64,000 nt of DNA from Hyaloperonospora brassicae (lineage: Eukaryota > Oomycota > Peronosporomycetes > Peronosporales > Peronosporaceae). A program made the position numbers and the translations under genes. The DNA lies in NCBI GenBank assembly GCA_947650285.1, contig CANTFL010000563.1, positions 1-64,000 on the forward strand, in the 5' to 3' direction. The notes under the pieces are model-generated. The model saw only the letters and a list, made by a program, of their open reading frames with translations, did not search any database and was not told the origin of the DNA. Shown one piece after another: positions 1-47,714 of the stretch (within the stretch, counting starts at the first letter, position 1; the number at the start of each line of letters is the position of its first letter).

Positions 1-321
1 GGGGCTAGAATAACCCGTACTCAGCGTACACTATTTCTAACGCTTTGAGGAAGCTCAAAGCCCAAGTCTTAGGTGTTAAGTATTTTTAACTCTGTTTATA
101 TTTTGTCTTTTAAAATCATCCTAAGTACGAATGGTTCCCTTGGACTCATGGGAACCACTCAATCTACGTGTCTATATCTTACTGGCTAATAATGGTACTG
201 AGCCCATTAAACCAGCTAAAATATACGACGTGCTACTTTCGCTACTTCGAAAGTAACACCCCTACTTAAGTAACATGTAAACTTAATCGAAACTACTTAT
301 GTAACGGGGTGGCCCATTACA
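1..321 (-). repeat. Gypsy-1 3' LTR (lacks its six outermost bases)
   Basis: Matches 7360-7680 base for base. The inner terminus is the TGTAATGGGCC end on the minus strand, directly preceded by a polypurine tract. Inverted repeats inside it include 42-49 with 54-61 and 132-139 with 150-157. Confidence 0.95.
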
Positions 322-334
322 TCACCCCCTTCTC
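322..334 (-). other. Polypurine tract of Gypsy-1
   Basis: On the minus strand the bases directly before the 3' LTR read GAGAAGGGGGTGA, a purine run placed where plus-strand priming is expected. Gypsy-2 has the similar AAGGGAGGGGTGA directly before its 3' LTR (47260-47272). Confidence 0.8.
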
Positions 335-397: not shown

Positions 398-1777
398 ATG
401 ACTGAAGACGCAGACGCCAACAAAACAGCACTCCCGCGCACAATCAGCGGGAGTTTGGTCGACCGCGTGATGGATCAGCACCTGATCCCTTGGGCGCTGT
501 ATGACTTGTCCGGAGCTCGGTCTCCGGACTCTCTCGAAACGATGCAGGACTACTTCCGTCGTTTCCGTGGGTTGCGCGGAAAGAGACTTGATGGAATCTC
601 ATACGAGTCACTCCAGCGGTCATGGTGTGCGTTCATCCGGCGGTGGAACCGGATGCATGAAGACGGAAGGAACTTTCAGCAGTGGCTGGCCAATCGCGAA
701 GATATCCACGCCGATCATTCCATCGGTGTACTGCGCGAGAAGATCTGTGAAAACGCCTGGAACGTAGATCGACTCTGCTACGTTCACGTGCACGAATCTT
801 GTTACTCCTGTGACTCGGTGCCTCGTCCAACTCGCGAAGCTTGGAAACGACACGTCGCTGAGTATCCACTCAGCGATTATGAACAGCTCTGGATAGGACG
901 GTACGAGCGCAGCTTGGTGGAGCGCAAGACTGCGGTTAATCGTGGCGCGTCACGCTGGCGACACCACTCGCGTTCTCGAGGTCGTGGTGCCGTGCAATCG
1001 CCACGACGTTCTCGTTCGCGTGATCGTCGCGATACACGCTCTTCGCAACGTTCTCGTCGTCGCTCTTCATCTTGTCGTCGTGGTGAAACGTCACCACGAC
1101 GTTCTCGCAATCGCTCTCGGTCTCGTAGTCGTGGTGACACTTCACCACGACACCGTCGTCGTGCATCTCGTTCTCGCTCACCGCGAGAACACACAGGTCG
1201 TCGACCAAGTCTACACCAAGCGTGTGCAGGGACTCGTAAGCCCGAACGAGGTCCGGAACGTCTCGAAGAAGCGAAGAGCGCGGTTCCCACGTATCCTGCT
1301 CGGGTGGAAACCCGAGCCAACGTACACGATACTTGCGCGCGGTTGGAACCGCGCGCTCATGGTGTCGCGACGATGTCGTTTCACGACGAGGGTCCTCGTG
1401 ACCCAGTAAACGCTCCACAATCCAGCGCTTCTGGCCTTCCGCGTCCACAAGCGGTGGTGGACCCTCACGATGGTACTGCTGGCGTCCTGGTTGCCCAGGA
1501 CGATGTAGATGCGGCTGTGAACAAGGCTGTCGATGCCCAGCTGGAGGCTGAAGCTGCCCTTGACCGAGCTGCGCGGGCTGAGAGAACAGCGAACGAGATT
1601 CGACAGTCGAACCGCGAGCTGCTTGAACGGATGCGGAACCTGGAACGCCAGGTTCTTGGGCACGCGCAGGCTGGGACGCAGCCGCGTCCGATGTCGCTGG
1701 TGCGTCGAGCAAGGCGAGAGGGAAGGTCGACCTATGAGCCTTTGACTCCGAGGACGGAGCCAACCCGTGAAGCGTAG
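398..1777 (+). CDS. Antisense ORF of Gypsy-1: RS-rich, coiled-coil protein, 459 aa
   Basis: This ATG-started ORF lies on the strand opposite gag-pol. It begins 77 bp inside the 3' LTR and overlaps the last 842 bases of pol (936-1777), while its first 538 bases are outside pol. Residues 1-185 are mixed and non-repetitive (Trp- and Tyr-containing). Residues about 188-272 are an Arg/Ser-rich domain like those of splicing factors. Residues about 368-417 form a strongly predicted-looking coiled coil (Ala/Glu/Arg heptads ending RNLER). The C-terminus is basic. Gypsy-2 carries a counterpart in the same place and orientation, also ending in a coiled coil, with the local match [10 protein letters not shown] versus SLLAAWNAFV. 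The position recalls antisense genes driven from a 3' LTR (for example HTLV-1 HBZ) and additional antisense ORFs described in plant LTR elements; a role in RNA binding or regulation is inference only. Confidence 0.65.
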
Positions 1778-4700
1778 CTGGACGGTACTCCTTGAGCCGC
1801 CCGACGTAAAACGTCGGGTGAAGTCGCAGTGACGAAGGGATGGCCAGTGTGTATGCGTCGCCGATTGCCTTGAGTACCGTGAATGGTCCGATGAAACGTG
1901 GCGCGAGTTTGCTCGCGCCTAGATTGGTTACTGCTGAATCTCGTAGGCCTTCGGTAGATAACAATACACGATCACCTTTCTTGAATGTACTCGTGTTCTT
2001 TCTTCCACGTTTGTCTGCATTCGCTTTCTGTTTATCCACTGCAGATCGAAGAGTATCGCGTACAAACCTCGTGATGGCTTGACGTTGGAGTATAAACTCT
2101 GACACAGCCATGTCATCAATTGGTCGCGCCGATTCAATCGGCGCGTAGTTAGCTTTAGGGTTTCGCATACTCGAAGAAGGGTCGATCAGCGTCTGTGTAG
2201 TCCATTGAGCTATCGGGGACGCCACGTCACGTGGCGTCGAAACAGAAGACTTCGCCTTGGAATGGTTGACAACATTCGCGCTCAGAATACCGTGAGCTTC
2301 ACTCGATCGTTGTTTATCGTTATCACCCCCCGCCAGAGTGGAGCCACGAAGAGCCGTGGGTTGACCCACGGCAAGAAGGGTAGGTACACGAGGATGACGG
2401 GCCGAATTTGCAAAAAATGGCGTCAACCCCGTTGACGCGTGAACCGCGTTGTTGAGTGCAAACTCCGCGAGTGGCAAAAACGCACTCCAACTTGTAAAGG
2501 ACGTTGCGTAACTTCGAAGAACATCTTCGAGGACCCGATTAACTCTCTCTGTTTGCCCATCCGTTTCCGGATGGGCTGCTGTCGACATTTGCAGCTTTGT
2601 GCCAAGCAACTCGAACAATGACGTCCAAAAAGCAGATGTAAAACGAGGATCACGGTCCGAGACAATGTTGTCTGGAAGACCGTGATGGCGAAACACAGTG
2701 TCAATGAAGTGCACCGCGGTCTCAGCCGCGGTGATCGTTGCATGAACAGGCACCAGATGTGTCATCTTGCTGAATCTGTCGACAAAGACCAGAATACCCG
2801 ATCGGTCTTGGCCATCTGGTGCAAGCCCGAAGATAAAATCCATTGAGACTGAGCTCCAAGCCTCAGCTGCAATTGGCAGGGGTCGCAGGGGTGCCTGCGA
2901 CGATGGTGATGGCTTCACGCGCTGACATACTTCGCAGGTGCGAACCCAGTTGCGAACCCACTTGTACATGTGGGGCCAGAAGAAGTCGCGCGAGACAGCC
3001 GCGAATGTCTTTTCGCGGCCCAGATGACCGCCAATTGGGGCATCATGGTACTCGTGGATGATACGAGCACGCAAATCCAAGTCATTCGCAATCACAGTTC
3101 GAGGCGCATCGAATTTGTCGATGCTATATAACAGCAAATCACCGTCCATACTGTATCGTTGAATGTGATCACGCTTCGTTCGCGAAAGAGCTCCCAGTGC
3201 AGCATCGCTGGGAGCGCGCAGATAGGCAATAATGTCCGCATAATCTGGATCGTTCGCGTAAGCCGCGACAATTTCATCGAAAAGGCATAACTCGGGTGTG
3301 ACCCGAGTTAGATTCAACGACACACACGTCGCACATCGATCGTCTTCATCGTCGTCGTCAGTTGCCTGACGACTCAGTGCCATACGAGGATCGTAATCTG
3401 GGCGTCGTGACAGTGCGTCAGCAAGAATGTTGGTCTTGCCTGGCTTGTAGTGCACGACGAAGTTGTACTCGGAGAAGAAAGAGAGCCACCGTGCCATCCG
3501 CTGTGACAGGTGTGGGCTCTTCATTGCTGTCCGCAGCGATGCATGATCAGTATACAGGGCGAACGTGCGTTCGCCCAGTAGGTGGACACGAAACTTGATG
3601 AGTGCGTAGCGCATCGCTAGCAGTTCCTTATCGTGAACCGGATAGTTCTTCTCTGCCGGCTTCATCTGTCGTGACTGATAGCTCACGACTCGTTCACGGC
3701 CCTCGTGATCGAACTGCATGAGGGCGCAACCAATTGCAAAGTCACTTGCATCACACACCACGTGAAACGGTTTGGTGTCGTCAGGGAGTATCAACACTGG
3801 CGCCGACGCCAGGCTTTTCTTCACTGCGTCAAAGGCTGCTTGATGTTCGGGACGCCACGACCACGTGGCGTCTTTCTTCAGAAGTGACGACAGGGGCTGT
3901 ATAGAACCGGCGTAATCCTTTGTGTACTTATGCAAGTAATTAGCTAGACCGAGCCATTGACGTAACTCCGTAGGGTTCTTGGGTGTGGGCCAAGAACAGA
4001 TTGACGACACCTTCTCTGGATCGGCTCGAACACCCGATTTACTCACGTAGCAGCCCAGCACCGGAATCTCCGGTGCACAGAATACACACTTCTTCAAGTT
4101 TGCATATAACTTGTTATCTCGCATGACTTGAAACACCTGCTTCAGGTGTTGAAGGTGAACTTGGACAGCACTGAGATTGCCCTCAGCGCGACTGTGGACA
4201 AAGATGTCATCGAAGTAGCTAGGAGCAAAGTCTCGAAGCGGTCTCAACACTTGAGATACCATGCGATTGAAAGTGGCTGGTGCGTTCTTCAATCCTTGTG
4301 GCATCACCAGCCACTCCCAAAGCATACCACTCGGGGTGCTCACCGCAGTGAGTGGTATGTCACTCTGTCGCATCAAGATCTGGTAGAAGCCATCGGTCAG
4401 ATCGATGGCGCTGAAGATGACGCTACCTGACATGGAGTTTAGAACCATGTCTTTCCTGGGGATAGGCGTTTGGGCAGGAATAGTGGCATCGTTGAGCTTG
4501 TTAAACGCATGCACTATACGCCAGCCTCCCGTAGCCTTCTTCACGCAGAAGGTTGGACTCGAATGGGGAGAGACACTCTCACGCACATGACCGGCCTTGC
4601 GACGACCTTCGAAGAATGCATCAATAGCCTCGACTTGGTCTCGAGGCAACGGCCACTGCCGTGTCACACAATATTTCGATCCTGGCACGAGATCAATCTC

Positions 4701-6293
4701 GTGCCGCACGCCACGATCGGCAGGGAGTTCGGCCGGAATCTTGTCCGGGAACACGTCGGCGTACTCTCGTGCAATGTCGTAAACAGGGTTACCAGACTCG
4801 CGCAGAGCCTCCCAAGATTGCGACGCAAATCTTTCTTCGCGCGCTGATTTCTTTTCAGCGCTTCGAGGGCGCGTCATTAGCTCCTCATTCGGCTCATGAG
4901 TCACCTCGTTGGTGACCAGACATACTTGTTCCACCGTGCCTCCCTTGAGGTCGCGTAGAAAATGCTTCCAGGAGAGTCCTGGAAGGCTCGTAATAGATGA
5001 CGCGTCGCGAGGTGGACTCGCGACCTCAATGTATTGGCGCCTTTGTGGACTCCCGTCCACGTACACAATAGCGTGAACACATTCCAACGCTGAGTTCTCG
5101 TAGCTTGCGTCCCCATCGTGCCTCGAGTCCATGCTCGAAGCTGGCGAACCGCAGTCAGGTGTTAAATCTGCACCCCCCTCTAGACGCTGGATGTCCTCAT
5201 CCAGGACGTCGAAATCGCGCGACGGGAGTATTCCATACTCGTCCGTCGACGCATGATGCGGGAGCCCCTGCTCTACCGCCACAAACTCGTGTGGGAGCCC
5301 CTGCTCGACCACGTCTTGCTCATGTGGGAAACTCTGTTCGACCACAGTAGGCGATGATGGGAACCCCTGTTCGACCATCATATTCGCACGTGGGGACTCT
5401 TGTCCATCCACGTCACACTCGGTGGCGAGCCCCTGCTCGGCCACGTCTTGCCCTTGTGGGAGCCTCTGCTCGACCACAATGGGTACAGGTGGGAACACCT
5501 GTTCGTGTTCGACCACTGCTCTCTCGTGCGGGAACCGCTGTTCGACCGCGTCGTCGTTGCGCGGGAGCCACTGCTCGTCCGCGTCGTCATTACGTGGGAG
5601 CCACTGCTCGTCCACGTCGGACTCCTCGCTGCAAAGCGAGGAGGCATCATCACTCGTGCGTAGGGGCACGGAACAAGCGGTACAGAGAGGGCCATCGCTC
5701 ACTCTGTGTACCGCCGGTGTCGTGGATGTACGATCCACGACTGTAACGTTCGGCCAATCACTTGGAGACACCAAGAGATGGGTGAACACTTCGCTGACGT
5801 CGAACTTGCTTCGACGTCTCACTGATCTGGCTAACCAGTCGATCTGGGGCTTATAGCGTGCCAACCATGGCATGCCCAGGATGCAATCGAATGCATAATT
5901 CATTTCAATCACCAAGAAGTTGTCGTTACTGCGAAAGCCGTCAAACGTGTACGGCAACGACACTTCGCGCCGCGATACGCGGCGTGGTTTCCCGTCAGCG
6001 AGCTTGACAACAACTTGGCCAGGTCCCTCGTGGACCTGGATGCTGGGTGGCAGCATTGACACGCAAGATTCACGGAAGAAATTGTTTGTCGCTCCTGAAT
6101 CCAGGAGCGCTCGTAGGGGTCGCCGGATACCGGCGACATGTAGATTAACAATAATCAGGCGTGAATCACCACTCGTAGTGGTGGCATTTGACCGTGCACG
6201 CAGCACAGATGGGCTGGGAGGTCGGGCTGCCACCGGTGGACCCGGACCTCTCTTCAAACCAGTAGGGCGCCCTGCACCTACTGGTCTCGTCCG
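936..6293 (-). CDS. pol: Gypsy-1 Pol polyprotein (PR-RT-RH-IN-chromodomain), made by -1 frameshift
   Basis: The open frame runs from the shift site at 6293 to TAA at 936. It has no early ATG and is in the -1 frame relative to gag. Counting from the TTG codon at 6257: a retropepsin has D-S-G at residue 53 and the ILGMPWL flap-end motif near 126. An acidic linker at 215-336 holds about ten imperfect VEQ-GLPH-type repeats. The reverse transcriptase carries YFDD at 681-684. RNase H starts near 830 ([11 protein letters not shown]). The integrase has an H-H-C-C zinc region followed by D (SMDFIFG), D (SDRDPRF) and E ([11 protein letters not shown]). A chromodomain lies at about 1605-1675 ([13 protein letters not shown]). 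The last 98 residues are an acidic/His tail encoded opposite the RS domain of the antisense ORF. All catalytic residues are present, so the enzyme set looks functional. Confidence 0.93.
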
Positions 6294-6299
6294 TTTTTT
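6258..6299 (-). promoter_or_regulatory. -1 ribosomal frameshift signal at the gag/pol junction of Gypsy-1
   Basis: In the gag frame the RNA reads CCA AAA AAC, which contains the canonical heptamer A AAA AAC at 6299-6293. After a 7-nt spacer (6292-6286) comes a perfect 9-bp stem, ACCAGTAGG (6285-6277) with CCTACTGGT (6266-6258), and a 10-nt loop. The gag TAG (6280-6278) lies in this hairpin. Slipping one base back leads exactly into the open pol frame. Gypsy-2 keeps the same layout at 41543-41586. Confidence 0.8.
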
Positions 6300-7327
6300 G
6301 GACGACTGATCGGAGCACCTCCCTCATGATGGGTGTCCGACGCATGCACCGACATCGGTGCTGGCGCGCGGCATTCAGCCGCGCGATGTCCCGGCTTTCG
6401 GCATCGAAAGCAGATCATCTGACGTCCGCCTCGGACGTCGCCCTTGTAGGCTGTAGCGCGTCGTCGGTCACCCGACGACTCAATTGCATCGATCTCCATA
6501 GGTTCCGGGCCCGCTGATCTGACAGCGGTAACAACTGAAGGCTTGGTATAGGCCTTGGTGACTCTGAAATCCTCACGGAGAGCGATAGCGAAAGCCTCCT
6601 CCAACGTGGCAGGCTCTGCTCGTTCCAGCGAGAGGCGAGTCTGCCCTTCACGCATGCCATCGACAAACACGTTCACTTGTGTATACATGTCCATGGGATG
6701 CGTGACAATACAAGACGCCAGATGTCGAGCCATCTGCACGTAGTCGCGCATGGACATCTTACCCTGTCGCAGGGACAGGAACCTTGAACGCACCAACTTC
6801 TCTTCCTGGGGCGGCTCGAAGGCGAGTCGAAGGTCACTCTGGATGGCTTCCAGAGTGGGGAACGCAAACTCGTCAACAACGAGTTTTCCCAAGGCCCACT
6901 CCTTGGCTTTCCCAGTGAGACGGGAAAGAAGGAAATTGACCTTCGCTTGAGGAGCCTCGAGAAGTCTCGAGGCGATAGCGATGTCGACCTCTCGAAACCA
7001 ACGAGACAACGACAAGCGTTCTTTTCCTTCGCCAGAATAGGCGGAGGTCTCCATCTTCACGGCATCGTTCCGTGAAGTCCGCGAGGGAGTTAAACCTCGC
7101 CGATGGAATTCGGCGAGCTCGCGAGCCATGTAGTCGTGTATGGCGAGACGCTGTTCATCAGGAGTCGCTGATCTCATCAGCGACACAACAAATGCCTCTC
7201 CCGATATCGCCGCGAGGCGATTTAGGGCATCCCACTCAACACCAGTGAGATGGGGAAAAGTCGCGTGCTCCAGACTCACGTCTGGAGCGTCAAAGTACGA
7301 CGAATCGCTCATCCCAAACTCGGGCAT
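6278..7327 (-). CDS. gag: Gypsy-1 Gag, 349 aa
   Basis: ATG at 7327 lies only 26 bp after the 5' LTR, leaving almost no leader beyond the primer site. Residues about 105-205 match a retrotransposon Gag core ([29 protein letters not shown]). Residues 306-319 form a CX2CX4HX4C zinc knuckle ([14 protein letters not shown]) for RNA binding. The protein ends in PKNGRDQ then TAG; the codons for P-K-N include the slippery AAAAAAC. Gag forms the particle that packages element RNA. Confidence 0.92.
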
Positions 7328-7332
7328 GGGAA

Positions 7333-7353
7333 GGACTACTAAGTGCTACCAGG
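7333..7353 (-). other. Primer-binding-site region of Gypsy-1
   Basis: Directly after the 5' LTR the minus strand reads CCTGGTAGCACTTAGTAG then TCC. Gypsy-2 has CCTAGTAGCACTTTGTAG then TCC in the same place. TGGTAGC is complementary to a tRNA 3' end GCUACCA (as in yeast initiator Met tRNA); the pairing beyond about 8 nt is not established. Confidence 0.55.
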
Positions 7354-7680
7354 TGTAACGGGGCTAGAATAACCCGTACTCAGCGTACACTATTTCTAAC
7401 GCTTTGAGGAAGCTCAAAGCCCAAGTCTTAGGTGTTAAGTATTTTTAACTCTGTTTATATTTTGTCTTTTAAAATCATCCTAAGTACGAATGGTTCCCTT
7501 GGACTCATGGGAACCACTCAATCTACGTGTCTATATCTTACTGGCTAATAATGGTACTGAGCCCATTAAACCAGCTAAAATATACGACGTGCTACTTTCG
7601 CTACTTCGAAAGTAACACCCCTACTTAAGTAACATGTAAACTTAATCGAAACTACTTATGTAACGGGGTGGCCCATTACA
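7354..7680 (-). repeat. Gypsy-1 5' LTR (327 bp, complete)
   Basis: Bounded by TGTAA and TTACA. Its outer 22 bases form a near-palindrome: TGTAATGGGCC followed by ACCCCGTTACA, and the opposite LTR end also finishes AGCCCCGTTACA. The promoter and polyadenylation sites could not be placed. Confidence 0.95.
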
Positions 7681-8025
7681 TTTACCGTGGTTGAAATTAG
7701 TGATGTCGCGTGGAAACCTTCTCAAGATAGCGGGTGTACTTGTAAGGTGCTCTATATGAGCCACCTTGATCTCTACGAGATCGCCTTGTCCAATGTAGAT
7801 GCTTGATCCGCGAGCCTTCTGACTAATTGATCCGTCTCGCGATCTCACCCCCTTTTCCTTTACGTGTTCTCTGCGTCCTATCGCAATTGAGGGTTTGTTG
7901 AGAGCATTCGATCCCTGGCCAAACAATCCAGGGATATCACGTGAGTTAAGTATGCGACTTTCTTTGACGTCGGGTGGCCAATGATCCAACCCGGAAGAGA
8001 AGTCGACACGTGTAGTTAGAAGCAA
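7642..8025 (-). CDS. Hypothetical ORF, 127 codons, truncated by the Gypsy-1 LTR
   Basis: I do not recognise this protein. About 115 of its codons lie in flanking DNA (7681-8025) and its stop falls inside the Gypsy-1 LTR, so any original gene continued past the insertion site. It contains runs such as GSNALNKPSIAIGRREH and DLVEIKVAHIEHLTS that look protein-like rather than random. It could equally be a chance open frame. The other side of the insertion lies outside the window. Confidence 0.2.
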   Translation of the reverse strand: MLLTTRVDFSSGLDHWPPDVKESRILNSRDIPGLFGQGSNALNKPSIAIGRREHVKEKGVRSRDGSISQKARGSSIYIGQGDLVEIKVAHIEHLTSTPAILRRFPRDITNFNHGKCNGPPRYISSFD

Positions 8026-39899: not shown

Positions 39900-39953
39900 C
39901 AACGACGAAGAAAAATGAATGTGGATGACTTGTTTGATTCGCTGCACCAAACA

Positions 39954-40395
39954 TGTAATGGGGTAGCCCATTTCATGAGATTGCCATTAAAACAATCTGA
40001 CAATAAAGGATATTACGTTGAATATTATTTTAATAATATCACAAGACATGGTGATATTGTTGGGATGACCGAAAGGTCTACTCATTGGTTGATATCGTGA
40101 TGATATCAACCCACCAATCGCTGCTAGACGCGCGCAATGGGTAGTGAGTAGACGCCATCATACATATAGTTATATTAGTTAATTAAGTCAGGACAACATA
40201 GATTCAAGGAGTTATAGGACTTAATTATATCAATACAGTTTTACTTTTACCAAGAGGCTAGTCTGACGACTTATTCTCCGTCCCTTCCTCTGTGTTTTCC
40301 TTAAAACACCTAGCAGGGCACTGTCGACCACTGTCGTCAGTGGAAGTATACTCCGTACTGGTCAACCAGTACGTAGTCAACAGTGCCCCGTTACA
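39954..40395 (+). repeat. Gypsy-2 5' LTR (442 bp)
   Basis: Begins TGTAATGGGGTAGCCC and ends CCCCGTTACA. Differs from the 3' LTR at the first 40 bp (five changes) and once near 40273. Confidence 0.93.
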
Positions 40396-40444
40396 CCTAG
40401 TAGCACTTTGTAGTCCGGCCAAGGTCACAACCCCATCGCCCAAC

Positions 40445-41564
40445 ATGAACATGTTGGACGATGTAGACGGCGACAGCTTTCACGGAACCCGTGAAAGCTA
40501 CTGTCATTTGAGCGACATCGAATGGAGTGCGATCGAACGAATGAGTTTGACCGTTGGCGAGGAAGCCATCTGGGCCATGCTATCCTCAAGGGATAGGGAC
40601 CAGAAACATGTCGTCATTAGCAAGTTCTTGTAACGAGAACATAATGAGTCGCGAGCGCAGGTGACCTTGTTACAACAACAAGATCACCAGCGGACCGAAG
40701 CACTGAGACAACAACAGTCTCAGTCCGCAGAGCCGACTCGTGAGCGTCGACGGGAGTCTCTAGAACTAGAGGTCTCCAAGTATCCTGGAGTCGAGGAAGA
40801 CTCCCTGTTGAGGTGGTTCGTGGAGCTGGACGATGCCATCTATGCTCGTCGAATCGATGATGAGCGAATGCAAGTCTCATTCGCTCAGTCTAACCTGGCA
40901 GGAGAAGCCAGAGCTTGGGCCCTGAACCTCAAGTTGCACGACCCACATGTGTTTGGGGCGTTGAGGATCTTCAAGACCCTGCTCAGTGAGACGTATGAAC
41001 CGCCCAGAGCAGAGTTCAGGAATCTTTCGGAGCTCCTGCAAATCAAGCAGGGTAAGCGTAAGGTTCACGCTTACGCCCAACATGTACGCTACCTTGCAAG
41101 CTGCATGGTAGTAAACCCTGTGAGTGAGTTTGTGTGGATCACAATCTTTATACAAGGGCTTTCAGACGACATGTTAGGGACCACCTGTTCCGCGGAAAGC
41201 TAAAGACGCTCTCCGAAGCAATATTTGCAGCGGAGCAAGAAGATTATAGCGTGAGACAATCTCACGCTACGTTGACCTTGCATCGTCCACAGAGACGATA
41301 AGCAGTCGGAGGTCCAGAACCAATGGACCTCTGTAATGTCGAGGGCGAGAAACCTCGCCCTGCGAATGACAAGCGAATGGTGAGATGCCATTGCTGTCAC
41401 AAACTGGGACACTACGCATATGAATGCAGTATTCCCCGCTCAGAACCTCGCGGTGCTGAGCGCAGTGTTCACCCACCAGCAAGAAGAACTGGAGGGCGAG
41501 GGTCCGTTGCTGTTGCGAAGTCGCAACAGCAAGGTGGACCATCAAAAACGGTCGGGATCAGTAG
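40445..41564 (+). pseudogene. Gypsy-2 gag, disrupted
   Basis: Starts ATG 40445 (MNMLDDVDGDSF). The Gag core reads SLLRWFVELDDAIYARR, AWALNLK and LLQIKQGKRKVHAYAQHV, in parallel with Gypsy-1 Gag. A zinc knuckle CHCCHKLGHYAYEC lies at about 41385-41425. In-frame TAA codons at 40631 and 41201, plus at least one frameshift before the knuckle, break it. The end of gag is KNGRDQ then TAG at 41562-41564, the same as Gypsy-1. Confidence 0.88.
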
Positions 41565-41586
41565 GGGCGGATCGCCCTACTGATCC
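41543..41586 (+). promoter_or_regulatory. Decayed -1 frameshift signal of Gypsy-2
   Basis: CAAAAAC (41543-41549), a 5-nt spacer, then a perfect 12-bp stem GGATCAGTAGGG (41555-41566) with CCCTACTGATCC (41575-41586) and an 8-nt loop. The gag TAG sits in the stem and the -1 frame leads into pol, as in Gypsy-1. The first base of the heptamer is C instead of A, which should weaken slipping. Confidence 0.65.
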
Positions 41587-44500
41587 AGCAACATCAAGAG
41601 AATTTGCAAGTCTCCTGAAGAAGGTTTCTCCCGACACACAATTTCTGTGTGTCTCTGCACCTGGTGATAAGCTGGCTCGTATCACCTTGAAGTTAGAAGT
41701 GAAAAAGGCTTGTCACTTCGCGCCCTAGTTGATTGTGGGGCGTCGAACAATTTTGTTCGTCGCCAGTCGCTATAGGCAGGATGTTTTAACGTCGTGGAGC
41801 GGGAGATCCCTCCAACGAAGATGACGGTGCGCCTAGCGACAGGCGCATCGGTCACTGTGAAGAAAAGTGTAGTCGGAATCCACTACACGTTAAAAGGCGA
41901 ACAGTACGATGATGATTTCATCGTGCTTGACCTAGATGACAAGTTCGACGTCATCTTAGGGTTGCCTTGGCTCAGGAAATACAAGCCAAGGGTGAGTTGG
42001 CAGTATCGATCGGTTACGATACCTACCACTTGTTCCTCAGATAAACATCTGACGAATAATTTGGAACGCCCACACTCACGTGGGTGTACTACGAGTGAGT
42101 ACGATGGTCTCACTTGTGGTACGGTCGTTAGCACGACTGTACAAGAACACAATGTAGATGATCACTACATTGAGTAGAAAGCTCACCCAGATCCTGTGGA
42201 AGTGATTTCCCAGGAGGTAATCGAGACACTGAATGTCTTGGTTAATGATGGATCAGGCGTAGGCGCTTACACGCTTGATCTGGTTGCGCCTCCGAAGATA
42301 ACCTCGAAGATAACTCAACTGCCGACGCTAGAACCGAAACGGTTCTTGCGTGATCTGCGTAGTAGCAAAGTTAAGCAGATCTGTGTACTCGTCGCGGAGG
42401 ACGAGTACGTTACCGATATTCGATCGGCAATGGTGTTTAATGAGAATAAGAGGGTTCTCAGCAGTTCATCGATGGACGAAAGTGTCATCGATGAGAAGAC
42501 TCAAATTGAGATATTTGAATCTCAATCCTGGAAGTCGCTTCAGGCAAATCATTTGTATATGGATTTGATCGAATTTAAGGATGTGTTCCCTGAATCCGTG
42601 CCTTGCGAGTTGCCTAAGGACAAAGGCACTCGACACGAGATCGAGCTCAAACCAGGCTCGAAGTACTGTGTCATGAAGCAGTGGCCACTGCCTCGTGAAC
42701 AAGTGATAGCGATCGACACGTTCTTTGCCGATCGCTTAGCAGCGGGCCATGTGAGGTAATCGACATCCCCTCACAGCTCTCCGACCTTCTGTGTGCGAAA
42801 GGCCACAGGAGGATGGCGGATAGTGCACACGTTCACCAAATTGAATGCTGCACCGGTACCGGCTCAGACGCCGTTACCCAATAGAGGACGTAATCATAGA
42901 TGGTATGTCAAAGAGTACCATCTTTTCGTCCATGGATCTGATGGACGGATTCTATCAGATCCTCATGCGTGAAAAGGATGTTCCGTACACAGCAGTGAGC
43001 ACCCCCAGCTGTATGCTGTGGGAGTGGCTAGTGATACCACAGGGGCTGAGTAATGCCCCTGCAACATTCAACAGATGCGTTACGAATCTGTTGAGACCGG
43101 TGCGGGATTTTGCACCAAGCTATTTCGATGATGTGTTTGTCCGTAGCCGGGATATGGATGAAAGGAAGGACGTTGAAGTTCACAGAACTCACGTTCGTCA
43201 GGTTCTTCAACGTATGCGCAAGCATAAGTTATATGCCAACCTCAAGAAGTGTATATTTGTGGAAAGCGAAATACCACTTCTCGGGTGCATCGTCGGCAAA
43301 CACGGCGTACGCCCTGATCCCGAAAAGATCAAGGCGATCATCGACGGGCCAGTGCCAGTCGATGTCAAGGGACTTCGTAAGTTCCTTGGCTTATCGGCGT
43401 ACATGCACAAGTTTTTCGCGCAATTACGCCGGGATGACTGTTCATCTTTCTTGCTTGCTCCAGAAAGATGTGAAGTGGTCATGGAACGCTGACTGTCAGC
43501 GTTCCTTTGAAAGCATCATGAAAAGATTGATGCAATCGCCCATCTTGGCGATTGCAGATCAGGACAGATCTTTTCATGTGGTCTGTGACGCCAGCGATTT
43601 TGCTATCGGCTATGCGTTGATGCAGTATGACACAGACGGCGCAGAGCGCGTCGTCTGCTATCAATCGCGTCAGCTGCAACCAGCCGAACGCAATTATCCA
43701 GTGCATGACAAGGAACTACTTTCCATGAATTATGCACTGGCTAAGTTCCGCGTCTATCTCCTCGGAGGTAGACCGTTCATCGTATATAAGGACCATGCGT
43801 CACTACGCACGGCCGTAGACAGTCCACACATCTCGAAACGAATGGCGAGGTGGCTGTCTTTCTTCGCGGAGTAAAACTTCCCCGTGGAGTACAAGCCAGG
43901 ACGACTTAATGTCGTCGCTGATGCGTTATCACGTCGGCCCGAATTCGAGCCAACTACCCGAGTCAACAGTGAGGCTTTGCCCACTGTTGCGACACTGTCC
44001 ATCAGTGTGCCGTCGTCGCCGTTACTCGACGACGGGCGGAAGGCATGCGCAGGAGACACGAATCTTCTCCGTTTGATGGGTCATCTTGCAAACCCATCCC
44101 GGAAATCCTTGTCGTATTTGCCGGCCCTGTACCGTTCCTCTTCGGATCGGTACACCACTCGCAATGTCCTGCTGTACTATACAGCAGTTGCTGACGACAC
44201 GCCTCGTGTCGTCGTTCCTAATCATGATGAATTGCGATTACGCATCATGTTCGAGTGTCACGATGCGCCGTCTGGCGGGCATCGTGGCAGAGAAAAGACT
44301 TAGCTCACGGGTAGTCGTGACTATTACTGGCCCCGCCAGTATGACTTTGTCCGCAAGTACATTCGTTCTTGCGAGGTCTGTCAACGGGTGAAGCCTAGTC
44401 CTTCATCCCGTGCATCCTTACAACCTCTGCCGGTCCCGGTAGAGTGTTAAGAGTCCGTGTCCATGGACTTTGTCTTCGGGAAACCCGAAGACACTAACAA

Positions 44501-45679
44501 GAATAATGGTATTCTTGTATTTGTGGATCGTTTCAGCAAGATAGTACATCTTGCTGCAGTCCCAGAATCGATCAACGCACACGGTTGTGCGCGTATCTTC
44601 ATCGACACTGTGTTTCGACTCCTCGTTTTACCCTGTGAACTCGTATCCGACCGTGACCCTCGGTTCACGGCGGCGTTTTGGTAATCCGTGTATCGCACAT
44701 TGGGAACACGGTTGAAGATGTCAAACTCTGACCATCCTGAAATAGATGGTCAGACAGAACGTGCGAACCGTGTCCTCGAAGAAATTCTTCGTGGATACGT
44801 CCACTCCATTTCCCATTGGAGTGAGTTCTTACCGATGGTTGAGTTTGCCATCAACAACTCCGTGCATGCGTCCACAACGCATACACCGTTCTACGTGAAT
44901 GTCTTACGCCACCCACGTATTCCCGCCCTCATACAGAGTGACTATGAGTTAAGGGGGGAGGGACTCGCTCGAGCAAAAACCGTTTAGACTCTTGCTCATC
45001 ACGTATCACCGCTCACGCCGATACGTTTGATGCCGATGTCGACAACGTCGACATCGAGGAAATCAAGCTTAGCAGTAGCGATGAAGCTGCTGCTACATCA
45101 GACAATGATGACGATGCTGGGATATTCAGCATCTTCAACGACAACGCCAGCGAGGAAGAGGACACCCTCGTTTAAGAAGAGAACGATCTCTTAGCAGTGC
45201 GCACGAAGCGCACTGAAAAACACAACAACGATTAAGCAGAGAACTTCCTGCTGACTCGACAGGCAGTAGTCCGTTTTGTACAGGACTCCATCGCAAATGC
45301 GGTGGACCGCCAGAAACGAAACGCAGACAAGAATGGAAGAGCAAATGTTCTTTCATTTAAAGTTAACGGCATTCTACTGCTGTCTCCGGTAAAATTACCT
45401 AGACATGCAGTCACTAATGTCGGCAGTAGTAAACTACAGCCGAGATACATTGGTCCATTTCGTGTCTTGCACCGCAAGGTCAATGCATACACTATCGAAT
45501 TGCCTCGTAGGATGCGCACGCATTCTACGTTTTATGTTGGTCGTCTCCGCCCGTACCATCCGTACGAGGCCTCTTGCGAGAACGAAGATAACCGGTGCGC
45601 TCAAGAATCCTCAACAGATTCTTGTGATCACGGAACAAACACTGAAGTTGGTCCTTCGTCGAAAGGAATTGGTCCTTAA
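41565..45679 (+). pseudogene. Gypsy-2 pol (PR-RT-RH-IN), disrupted
   Basis: Protease region LVDCGASNNFV (catalytic D kept, next residue Cys) and VILGLPWLRKYKP at 41730-42000. RT at 42780-43430 with SYFDDVFVRSR. RNase H at 43560-43870 ([14 protein letters not shown]). Integrase zinc region at 44250-44400 and core motifs SMDFVFG, SDRDPRF and GQTERANRVLEE at 44457-44990. C-terminal LQPRYIGPFRVL and RTHSTFYVGRL end at 45679; no chromodomain was seen, unlike Gypsy-1. In-frame stops, mostly TAA (42757, 43873, 44301 TAG, 44448, 44683, 45173, 45233), and several frameshifts disrupt it. Confidence 0.88.
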
Positions 45680-47188
45680 TCGACGCGGCCTCGCGACGAG
45701 CCGTCTCTAGCTCGTCGCGCAAACGACGCCTCCCGCGTTTACTCTCAAGCTGAGCAAACGCGAATTCCGATCGGTCCGTCTCCCGATCGGCACGAAGACG
45801 TCGCACGTCCGACTGCAAGGCGTGCCGACGATCGTTTTCGTGATCGACGTCCTCCCTCATCTCGGTCAGGTAACGCTCGTGGTTACCCAAAGTCTCGTGC
45901 AGGCCCGGCGGCTGAGCCGGGCCTTGTCTTTCCACCGCCACCGGAACCACTGGTGGATTTCCACGGTGGTCAACGCTTTCTTGTGGAGCGTATCTTGAAC
46001 CACCGTGGCGAATCAGAATCAAGGACGAGTTACCTCGTCCGGTAGAGTGGGTACCCACCTTCCTTTGACAGCTGGGAACCTCGTTCCCAGCTGATGGCTG
46101 ACGTTGAAGATCTCGTCCACCAGTATGACGAGACTCATCCAATAGGTCCTCGGACCCATCAGTAAACACGCGCTTTTGGCGCTTGTAGACGGATTGCAAG
46201 TTTGCAATCGCGTCCCGAATCTCAGCCGAGATTTGTGCCCTACCCCAGGGCGAACTTAGGGAATACACGTCCCTATGTGCACGTTGCGAGTTGTCGATAC
46301 AGCTCGCAAAAGGATCACCCCAAGTGAGGCATGGAATGCCGGCCTCACTTAACATATTATGCAACCGGTACCTTGCACCGGTTGGCGTTCGCTTTTCGAA
46401 CTTGAGGCGTATCGCCTCAATCTTCTTAAGCCGCCCTTCTCGTCCAAAATTCTTGACGTTTTGGACGAAGGCGTTCCACGCTGCTAAAAGCGAGGCCTTG
46501 TCACGCTTTTAATTGCCATTATACCATCGATGCCTAAGGAAGGCTTCGAGAAAGAAGTCTTCTTCAGCGCGGAAGTTACTCGCGCTGAAACTTAAGCCGT
46601 GAAGCTCAGTTGCATTGAATAAAGGAATTCGATGGTGTTGGCTTGTCTCGTGAGACAAGCTATTGATGAGCTGCTCGGGCAAGCGCCACGGCTTGAGCTC
46701 ATCACGCTTCAATGTGGTACCTGTTATGGTACCACGGCTTACAGAATGACGATGGCTCTCGCCATCGTCATCACGCTCTTGCGGGAAAGCACGAGTTGAT
46801 ACTGGTGAGGCATAGTAGTCCTCACCATAGAGTTCATCATCACTGCCGAACAGACTGTGATGCATTTCACGAGCCCGCTCGTTCGACAGTGCTCTTGACG
46901 AACGATGAGGCACCGCAGGTGATCGGGATGCCTCTGGAACGTTGCGCGAGTCAGGCACGTCTGACTCGCCATAATTGATGACCTCATTGCCAAGGTCATC
47001 ATGTGCACGTGGTGCGATACCGCGTGCGTCTGCAGCACCTTCTGCTGCAGACGGAGAAAAGCAGCAGACGACGAAGCGTCTGCCGCAGAGGCTGGCACAG
47101 CAGCAGGCTGTGTGGTCTTCGAATCACCTCGCATAGACATGTTAACTATGCGAGGCAAGGTTAGGAGTGAATGGGTCTGACCAAACAA
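45525..47188 (-). pseudogene. Antisense gene of Gypsy-2 (coiled-coil protein), disrupted
   Basis: Starting near the 3' LTR and reading toward pol, three open stretches join: 47188-46739 (an ATG at 47140, MSMRGDSKTTQPAA), 46958-46509 and 46364-45525. The last two are in the same frame, separated only by TAA at 46511-46509; the first needs one frameshift. The joined product is about 550 residues. It contains the segment SLLAAWNAFV, matching [10 protein letters not shown] in the Gypsy-1 antisense protein, and a long C-terminal coiled coil rich in Arg/Glu/Asp (YLTEMREDVDHENDRR, RDELETARREAASIKDQ) ending in a basic KRPRTDG. It overlaps the pol end by 155 bp. There is no RS domain. Confidence 0.6.
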
Positions 47189-47259
47189 GTGCTCCCTGTC
47201 CCACTGGTGTCCAACGGGTGGCCACCAAGTTTTCGATAGTCACACGGTGGCTATCAGAT

Positions 47260-47272
47260 AAGGGAGGGGTGA
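47260..47272 (+). other. Polypurine tract of Gypsy-2
   Basis: AAGGGAGGGGTGA directly before the 3' LTR, the same design and GGGGTGA end as in Gypsy-1. Confidence 0.8.
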
Positions 47273-47714
47273 TGTAACGGGGTAGCCCGATACATGAGAT
47301 TGTCATTAAAACAATCTGACAATAAAGGATATTACGTTGAATATTATTTTAATAATATCACAAGACATGGTGATATTGTTGGGATGACCGAAAGGTCTAC
47401 TCATTGGTTGATATCGTGATGATATCAACCCACCAATCGCTGCTAGACGCGCGCAATGGGTAGTGAGTAGACGCCATCATACATATAGTTATATTAGTTA
47501 ATTAAGTCAGGACAACATAGATTCAAGGAGTTATAGGACTTAATTATATCAATACAGTTTTACTTTTACCAAGAGGCTAGTCTGACGACTTAGTCTCCGT
47601 CCCTTCCTCTGTGTTTTCCTTAAAACACCTAGCAGGGCACTGTCGACCACTGTCGTCAGTGGAAGTATACTCCGTACTGGTCAACCAGTACGTAGTCAAC
47701 AGTGCCCCGTTACA
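47273..47714 (+). repeat. Gypsy-2 3' LTR (442 bp)
   Basis: Begins TGTAACGGGGTAGCCCG and ends CCCCGTTACA. Nearly identical to 39954-40395. Confidence 0.93.

Follow-up and report, generated by a model that had tools for sequence, protein, structure and literature searches.

Genes for accessory proteins on the antisense strand are already known from long terminal repeat (LTR) elements of plants (Grande, RIRE2 and Retand), from the fungal Boty elements and, as HBZ, from a retrovirus (PMC11963269; PMC7264820; PMC8365987). In the plant class named aORF-3R, which includes Grande GENE23, RIRE2 and Retand TRP28, the antisense protein gene is described as lying between pol and the 3' LTR, as being present in most copies and as being of ancient origin; GENE23 is reported to have its own promoter and to encode a nuclear protein (PMC7264820; PMC11963269). 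The antisense promoter of human T-cell leukaemia virus (HTLV) is placed in the 3' LTR, and the functions of the antisense accessory genes of plant LTR elements and of the fungal family are given as unknown (PMC7264820). Here we describe an antisense gene in an oomycete. It belongs to a Ty3/Gypsy element (element A) at the start of contig CANTFL010000563.1 of Hyaloperonospora brassicae, whose first 64,000 nucleotides are referred to below as the window. Our literature searches listed nothing on antisense accessory genes in oomycetes, and the word 'antisense' does not occur in the main text of the oomycete Gypsy paper PMC5348765.

The frame 398-1777, which runs on the plus strand against pol, appears to be a genuine gene for an accessory protein of chromodomain-bearing Ty3/Gypsy elements of the Peronosporaceae, and its N-terminal domain (N-domain) outside pol is under purifying selection. 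The initial annotation had proposed a 459-residue, ATG-started frame that reads from beside the 3' LTR back into pol, with about 540 bp outside it, and this layout holds: with the limits of both LTRs placed by their TG...CA ends, 76 bp separate LTR from ATG, 538 bp (398-935) lie outside pol, and the remaining 842 bp overlap the pol tail, the chromodomain and the linker between integrase and chromodomain. After dinucleotide shuffling, 398-1774 was open across 459 codons in 0 of 5000 trials, and 398-935 across 179 codons in 24 of 20,000.

We searched the genome (100.6 Mb, 898 contigs) with the window gene and obtained at least 110 matches, from 92 scored of 210 candidates; 30 loci were fetched. 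Twenty-three of these, counting the window copy L001, are at least 99% identical to the window copy, and the frame is open in 21 of them (L001-L021), with a 24-base deletion in L021. Seven older copies (L022, L023, L025, L026, L027, L029 and L030), which are 90.0-92.5% identical to the window copy over 2.9-3.2 kb, were compared with it; L024 and L028 were excluded. We define a difference as shared if it is common to at least two older copies, most such differences being expected to predate the insertion of these copies. Shared differences in 398-935 fall on antisense codon positions 1/2/3 in the numbers 10/5/31. The corresponding numbers at pol positions are 20/14/47 in the pol-only stretch 1778-3250, and the LTR, divided into identical coordinate classes, gives 6/6/3.

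Synonymous and nonsynonymous differences in 398-935 number 27 and 20 among those shared, and 42 and 105 among the singletons (Fisher P 4.5e-4). Where a synonymous fraction of 0.259 is expected, the binomial P is 4.8e-6 for the shared differences and 0.26 for the singletons. Pairwise ratios of nonsynonymous to synonymous substitution rates (dN/dS) on 398-935 range from 0.14 to 0.38 in all seven older copies, and from 0.31 to 0.49 in the pol-only stretch. The initial annotation had called for this comparison and had taken a lack of purifying selection among family copies as grounds against its gene; such selection was found. Like the plant aORF-3R genes, the gene is thus present in most copies (21 of 23 open) and, judged by dN/dS, conserved like gag-pol.

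Two further Gypsy families in the genome carry antisense genes. Family A' (L032), whose reverse transcriptase (RT) is 87% identical to that of element A, has a 505-codon antisense frame in the same layout. From the aligned ATG onwards, the A and A' proteins are 47% identical in the N-domain versus 28% opposite the chromodomain. This bears on the idea that 398-1777 is open by chance or merely as a shadow of pol. Although the part over the chromodomain is indeed governed by pol, the best conserved part of the protein is the N-domain, the 538 bp outside pol show third-position bias, and shuffling closed the complete frame in every one of the 5000 trials, so that we consider a shadow or chance frame extremely unlikely; the initial annotation, too, had set aside a mere shadow of pol.

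Family B (L036; RT 70% identical to that of element A) has a 540-codon antisense frame. The second Gypsy element of the window, Gypsy-2 (39953-47571), aligns with L036, and the counterpart that the initial annotation had noticed there is present in matching place and orientation, although split: its two pieces adjoin in a single reading frame that is interrupted by a stop. With the B protein as query, a genome search listed 81 best places (the best-scoring part of 3756 first-look candidates), of which 65 were free of stops. Between Gypsy-2 and L036, differences in the B N-domain fall on codon positions 1/2/3 in the numbers 14/13/40; the part before the N-domain gives 26/21/37 and 424 compared LTR-side bases give 30/13/23. 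The phase between pol and antisense frame is equal in families A, A' and B (offset 1), with antisense positions 2 and 3 facing pol positions 3 and 2, respectively.

We searched for relatives with phmmer and with a profile built from 19 sequences, scoring in each search about 8000 candidates that shared most words with the query. The former yielded at least 28 relatives of the window protein, and the latter, a search suggested by the initial annotation, at least 62. All named organisms among the relatives listed belong to Phytophthora, Peronospora or Hyaloperonospora, and the closest named relatives among the matches listed are from Peronospora matthiolae. In the alignment of the 19 sequences (alignment A1), Trp96, Cys117, Cys127 and Cys135 of the N-domain are invariant and Cys138 is almost invariant; the longer members also have an RS-rich (arginine-serine) part and a coiled-coil part. 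A role of the antisense RNA alone, with the frame being incidental, has a parallel in the non-coding antisense transcripts described for micropia of Drosophila (PMC7264820). Against it stand the codon-position bias and the low dN/dS of 398-935, a similar bias in the divergent family B and the conservation of the protein across genera, and we regard it as very improbable here.

Most of the relatives are entered in databases as 'hypothetical' or 'uncharacterised' proteins. P0033 and P0037, relatives of the Gypsy-2 type from H. arabidopsidis, are named 'Core-binding (CB) domain-containing protein' and 'RxLR effector candidate protein'; since these names sit on relatives of a retrotransposon antisense protein, both are probably misnamed.

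For 15 Phytophthora proteins, we tested the compatibility of their residues with coding opposite the window pol residues in the observed phase. Among pairs with both residues unlike those of the window protein, 239 of 400 opposite the chromodomain fit the window pol residue, although these pairs are not independent, because the Phytophthora proteins are mutually related. By the same procedure, fitting pairs number 165 of 516 for the N-domain outside pol, 69 of 217 across the RS part and 121 of 298 over linker plus coil, while the two other phases over the chromodomain stretch give 62 of 400 and 15 of 380. With one residue of the pair differing, 235 of 273 pairs fit versus 560 of 1086. This pattern, as strong though indirect evidence, suggests that the Phytophthora antisense genes also lie over the pol chromodomain, and in matching phase.

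AlphaFold2 predicts a helical N-domain (10-residue mean confidence score, pLDDT, 66-87 over residues 31-180), a middle part of low confidence and a C-terminal helix (72-90 over residues 371-420); the latter corresponds to the coiled coil expected from the initial annotation. The RS domain of that annotation is present as well: the window protein contains 28 RS/SR dipeptides, 24 of them in the RS-rich stretch, and the maximum in 2000 whole-protein shuffles was 27. Its claim to be central to function loses weight in view of the Gypsy-2 type, which has an equal antisense layout and no clear RS domain; nine relatives of the Gypsy-2 type protein have 5-15 RS/SR dipeptides each and a predicted coiled coil. 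The window protein has the RS-rich stretch of an SR/RS protein, and a Pfam scan of it at E<=1, in which every match was below its family cut-off, contained no RNA recognition motif (RRM) family. As a further observation, the pol tails past the chromodomain (936-1229 in the window, compared with L032) differ in length and sequence, and the opposite strand retains an RS-rich protein; the A/A' pol tail beyond the chromodomain may itself be a shadow of the antisense gene.

Several results weigh against the reading of 398-1777 as a working accessory gene of the element, or do not favour it. Within the overlap, the antisense frame shows no synonymous excess (shared synonymous/nonsynonymous differences of 7/24 in the tail, 0/9 in the chromodomain and 8/17 in the linker), and the chromodomain stretch follows pol, with 8/1 in the pol frame. 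The RS-rich stretch and the coil are consequently backed by conservation between species and not by the selection tests. Two of the copies at 99% identity or above are damaged, L024 by a stop (codon 177) together with 16 gap bases, and L028 by truncation at a contig edge with a changed frame. Differences among the young copies are uninformative, with 9/4/16 over 398-935 but also 1/5/13 over the LTR, which is non-coding. The RS stretch is found in two of the three families only (A and A') and is absent from B, and a profile comparison of the A and B N-domains with hhalign gave no significant match (P 0.027). Finally, comparison of the whole model with PDB and viral folds gave no outstanding match and suggested no activity.

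As to function, we give about even chances to the proposal that the antisense protein regulates the expression of its own element. The layout is suggestive of an accessory protein with a transcript of its own. Since the gene adjoins the 3' LTR, an antisense promoter may be located there; HTLV is described with such a promoter in the 3' LTR and Grande GENE23 with its own promoter (PMC7264820). A promoter in or near the LTR would drive transcription of 398-1777. The product would be a basic protein made up of an N-domain with conserved cysteines, an RS-rich arm (in two families) and a coiled coil, and a basic arm, a cysteine motif and a coiled coil would be in keeping with a nuclear protein that acts on chromatin or RNA. 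Once in the nucleus, such a protein would self-associate by means of its coil and bind at the element, either to RNA or to chromatin, thereby regulating transcription, processing or export of the sense RNA, much as is thought for the antisense proteins Grande GENE23 or HTLV HBZ. The control of unspliced genomic RNA put forward by the initial annotation is one of several actions that might be envisaged.

The same features could serve other ends. The protein might suppress host silencing (RNA interference or heterochromatin) and not act on element RNA: a basic protein of RS type could bind small or double-stranded RNA, and small RNAs on both strands are described along two abundant Gypsy elements of P. 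infestans (PMC3522703). No silencing suppressor family is among the Pfam matches of the window protein at E<=1, and we hold this explanation to be unlikely. The cysteine motif, the basic disordered arm and the coiled coil would also fit the packing of nucleic acid, and thus a component or co-factor of the particle (nucleocapsid-like, or acting in integration or assembly) that is made from antisense RNA. However, element A already encodes a gag with a zinc knuckle and a structural protein would need a separate mRNA, which makes a particle role rather improbable.

A stem-loop sits between the antisense start and the polypurine tract (PPT), just outside the 3' LTR. Its folding z-score is -2.98 on the plus strand and -1.75 on the sense (minus) strand, where 12 of 200 shuffles fold equally well. 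Families A' and B have stem-loops of differing sequence at the corresponding place (the fold at L032:2571-2650 lies within the LTR and was excluded). LTR/PPT junctions with at most one mismatch number 870 genome-wide versus 0 for the reversed pattern, and an arm of at least 8 bp is present in 26 of the first 30 junction loci, all of which are B-like (L041-L070). B-type junctions have a second inverted repeat following the first stem-loop (L036, within 682-760). The pairing persists while the sequence varies from family to family, which points to a functional structure of the sense RNA or of the antisense leader, and the stem-loop may belong to the antisense-gene system. More tentatively, the gene would be an ancient dual-coded one, kept in a single phase over the pol chromodomain across Gypsy elements of Phytophthora and downy mildews, whose nuclear product controls element RNA, perhaps via the PPT stem-loop, in a system that resembles HBZ or Rev and evolved independently.

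Element A lies on the minus strand, and the contig start falls inside its 3' LTR. It has the LTR pair, gag and pol order (protease, RT, RNase H, integrase) of a Ty3/Gypsy element, together with a PPT, the role of which in LTR elements is well established. The element is young; its LTR copies (1-322 and 7360-7681) are identical at all 322 compared bases. The coordinates of all features are collected in Table 1.

Table 1. Features of element A, its antisense gene and the Gypsy-2 antisense frame in the window
Feature	Position	Strand	Basis and remarks
3' LTR, element A	1-321	-	Identity to 7360-7680, TG..CA ends; about 6 bp lost at contig start
PPT adjoining 3' LTR	322-334	-	Sequence
PPT-proximal stem-loop, perfect 9-bp arms (340-348/354-362), 5-nt loop	340-362		Folding versus shuffles
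Antisense gene, 459 aa	398-1777	+	ATG at 398; open plus-strand frame 380-1777
Helical N-domain, aa 31-183	488-946	+	Nearly all outside pol; AlphaFold2; conserved in alignment A1
Cysteine motif C-x9-C-x7-C-x2-C, aa 117-138	746-811	+	Alignment A1, motif scan
RS-rich stretch, aa 181-275	938-1222	+	Antisense to pol tail; dipeptide count; low pLDDT
C-terminal helix/coiled coil, aa 367-426	1496-1675	+	Antisense to pol linker; AlphaFold2
pol (protease, RT, RNase H, integrase, chromodomain)	936-6323	-	1795 codons open
pol chromodomain, antisense gene opposite	1230-1424	-	Pfam PF00385, E 6.9e-9
gag (capsid and zinc knuckle)	6278-7345	-	Pfam scan
5' LTR, element A	7354-7680	-	LTR identity, TG..CA ends
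Gypsy-2 antisense frame, rest of N-domain and coiled coil	45525-46508	-	Aligns with L036
Gypsy-2 antisense frame, N-terminal piece	46509-47123	-	Stop follows; aligns with L036

The parallels that the initial annotation drew with HTLV-1 HBZ and the plant antisense frames stand at the level of layout. Like the plant aORF-3R genes, the window gene is antisense to gag-pol at the end of pol next to the 3' LTR; it differs in overlapping pol across the chromodomain, the comparison with TRP28 and GENE23 being one of descriptions only. HBZ, likewise an antisense protein, carries a bZIP domain, whereas no bZIP family was obtained for the window protein with Pfam at E<=1 and its RS stretch stops some 90 residues ahead of the coil. 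In Botrytis cinerea, a filamentous plant pathogen but a fungus, the Boty-like elements, which are of Gypsy type, are described as having BRTN as an additional gene in antisense orientation (PMC8365987; PMC7264820); the likeness to the window gene is one of description. The oomycete Ty3/Gypsy elements named Chronos are described as having a C-terminal chromodomain in pol, as is found in element A, but with a dual RNase H (PMC5348765); in element A pol, Pfam at E<=1 finds only two overlapping Gypsy-type RNase H models and no second, archaeal-type one.

Since relatives of the window protein mostly carry hypothetical or uncharacterised names and one is called an RxLR effector candidate, the gene catalogues of major plant pathogens may be affected. 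Compared with the known systems, the oomycete host group, the fixed-phase overlap with the chromodomain and the measured selection are new. The gene adds a case from another eukaryote group, with purifying selection measured, relatives in three genera and a fixed phase of overlap with pol, and the question of what antisense proteins of retroelements do thereby becomes testable.
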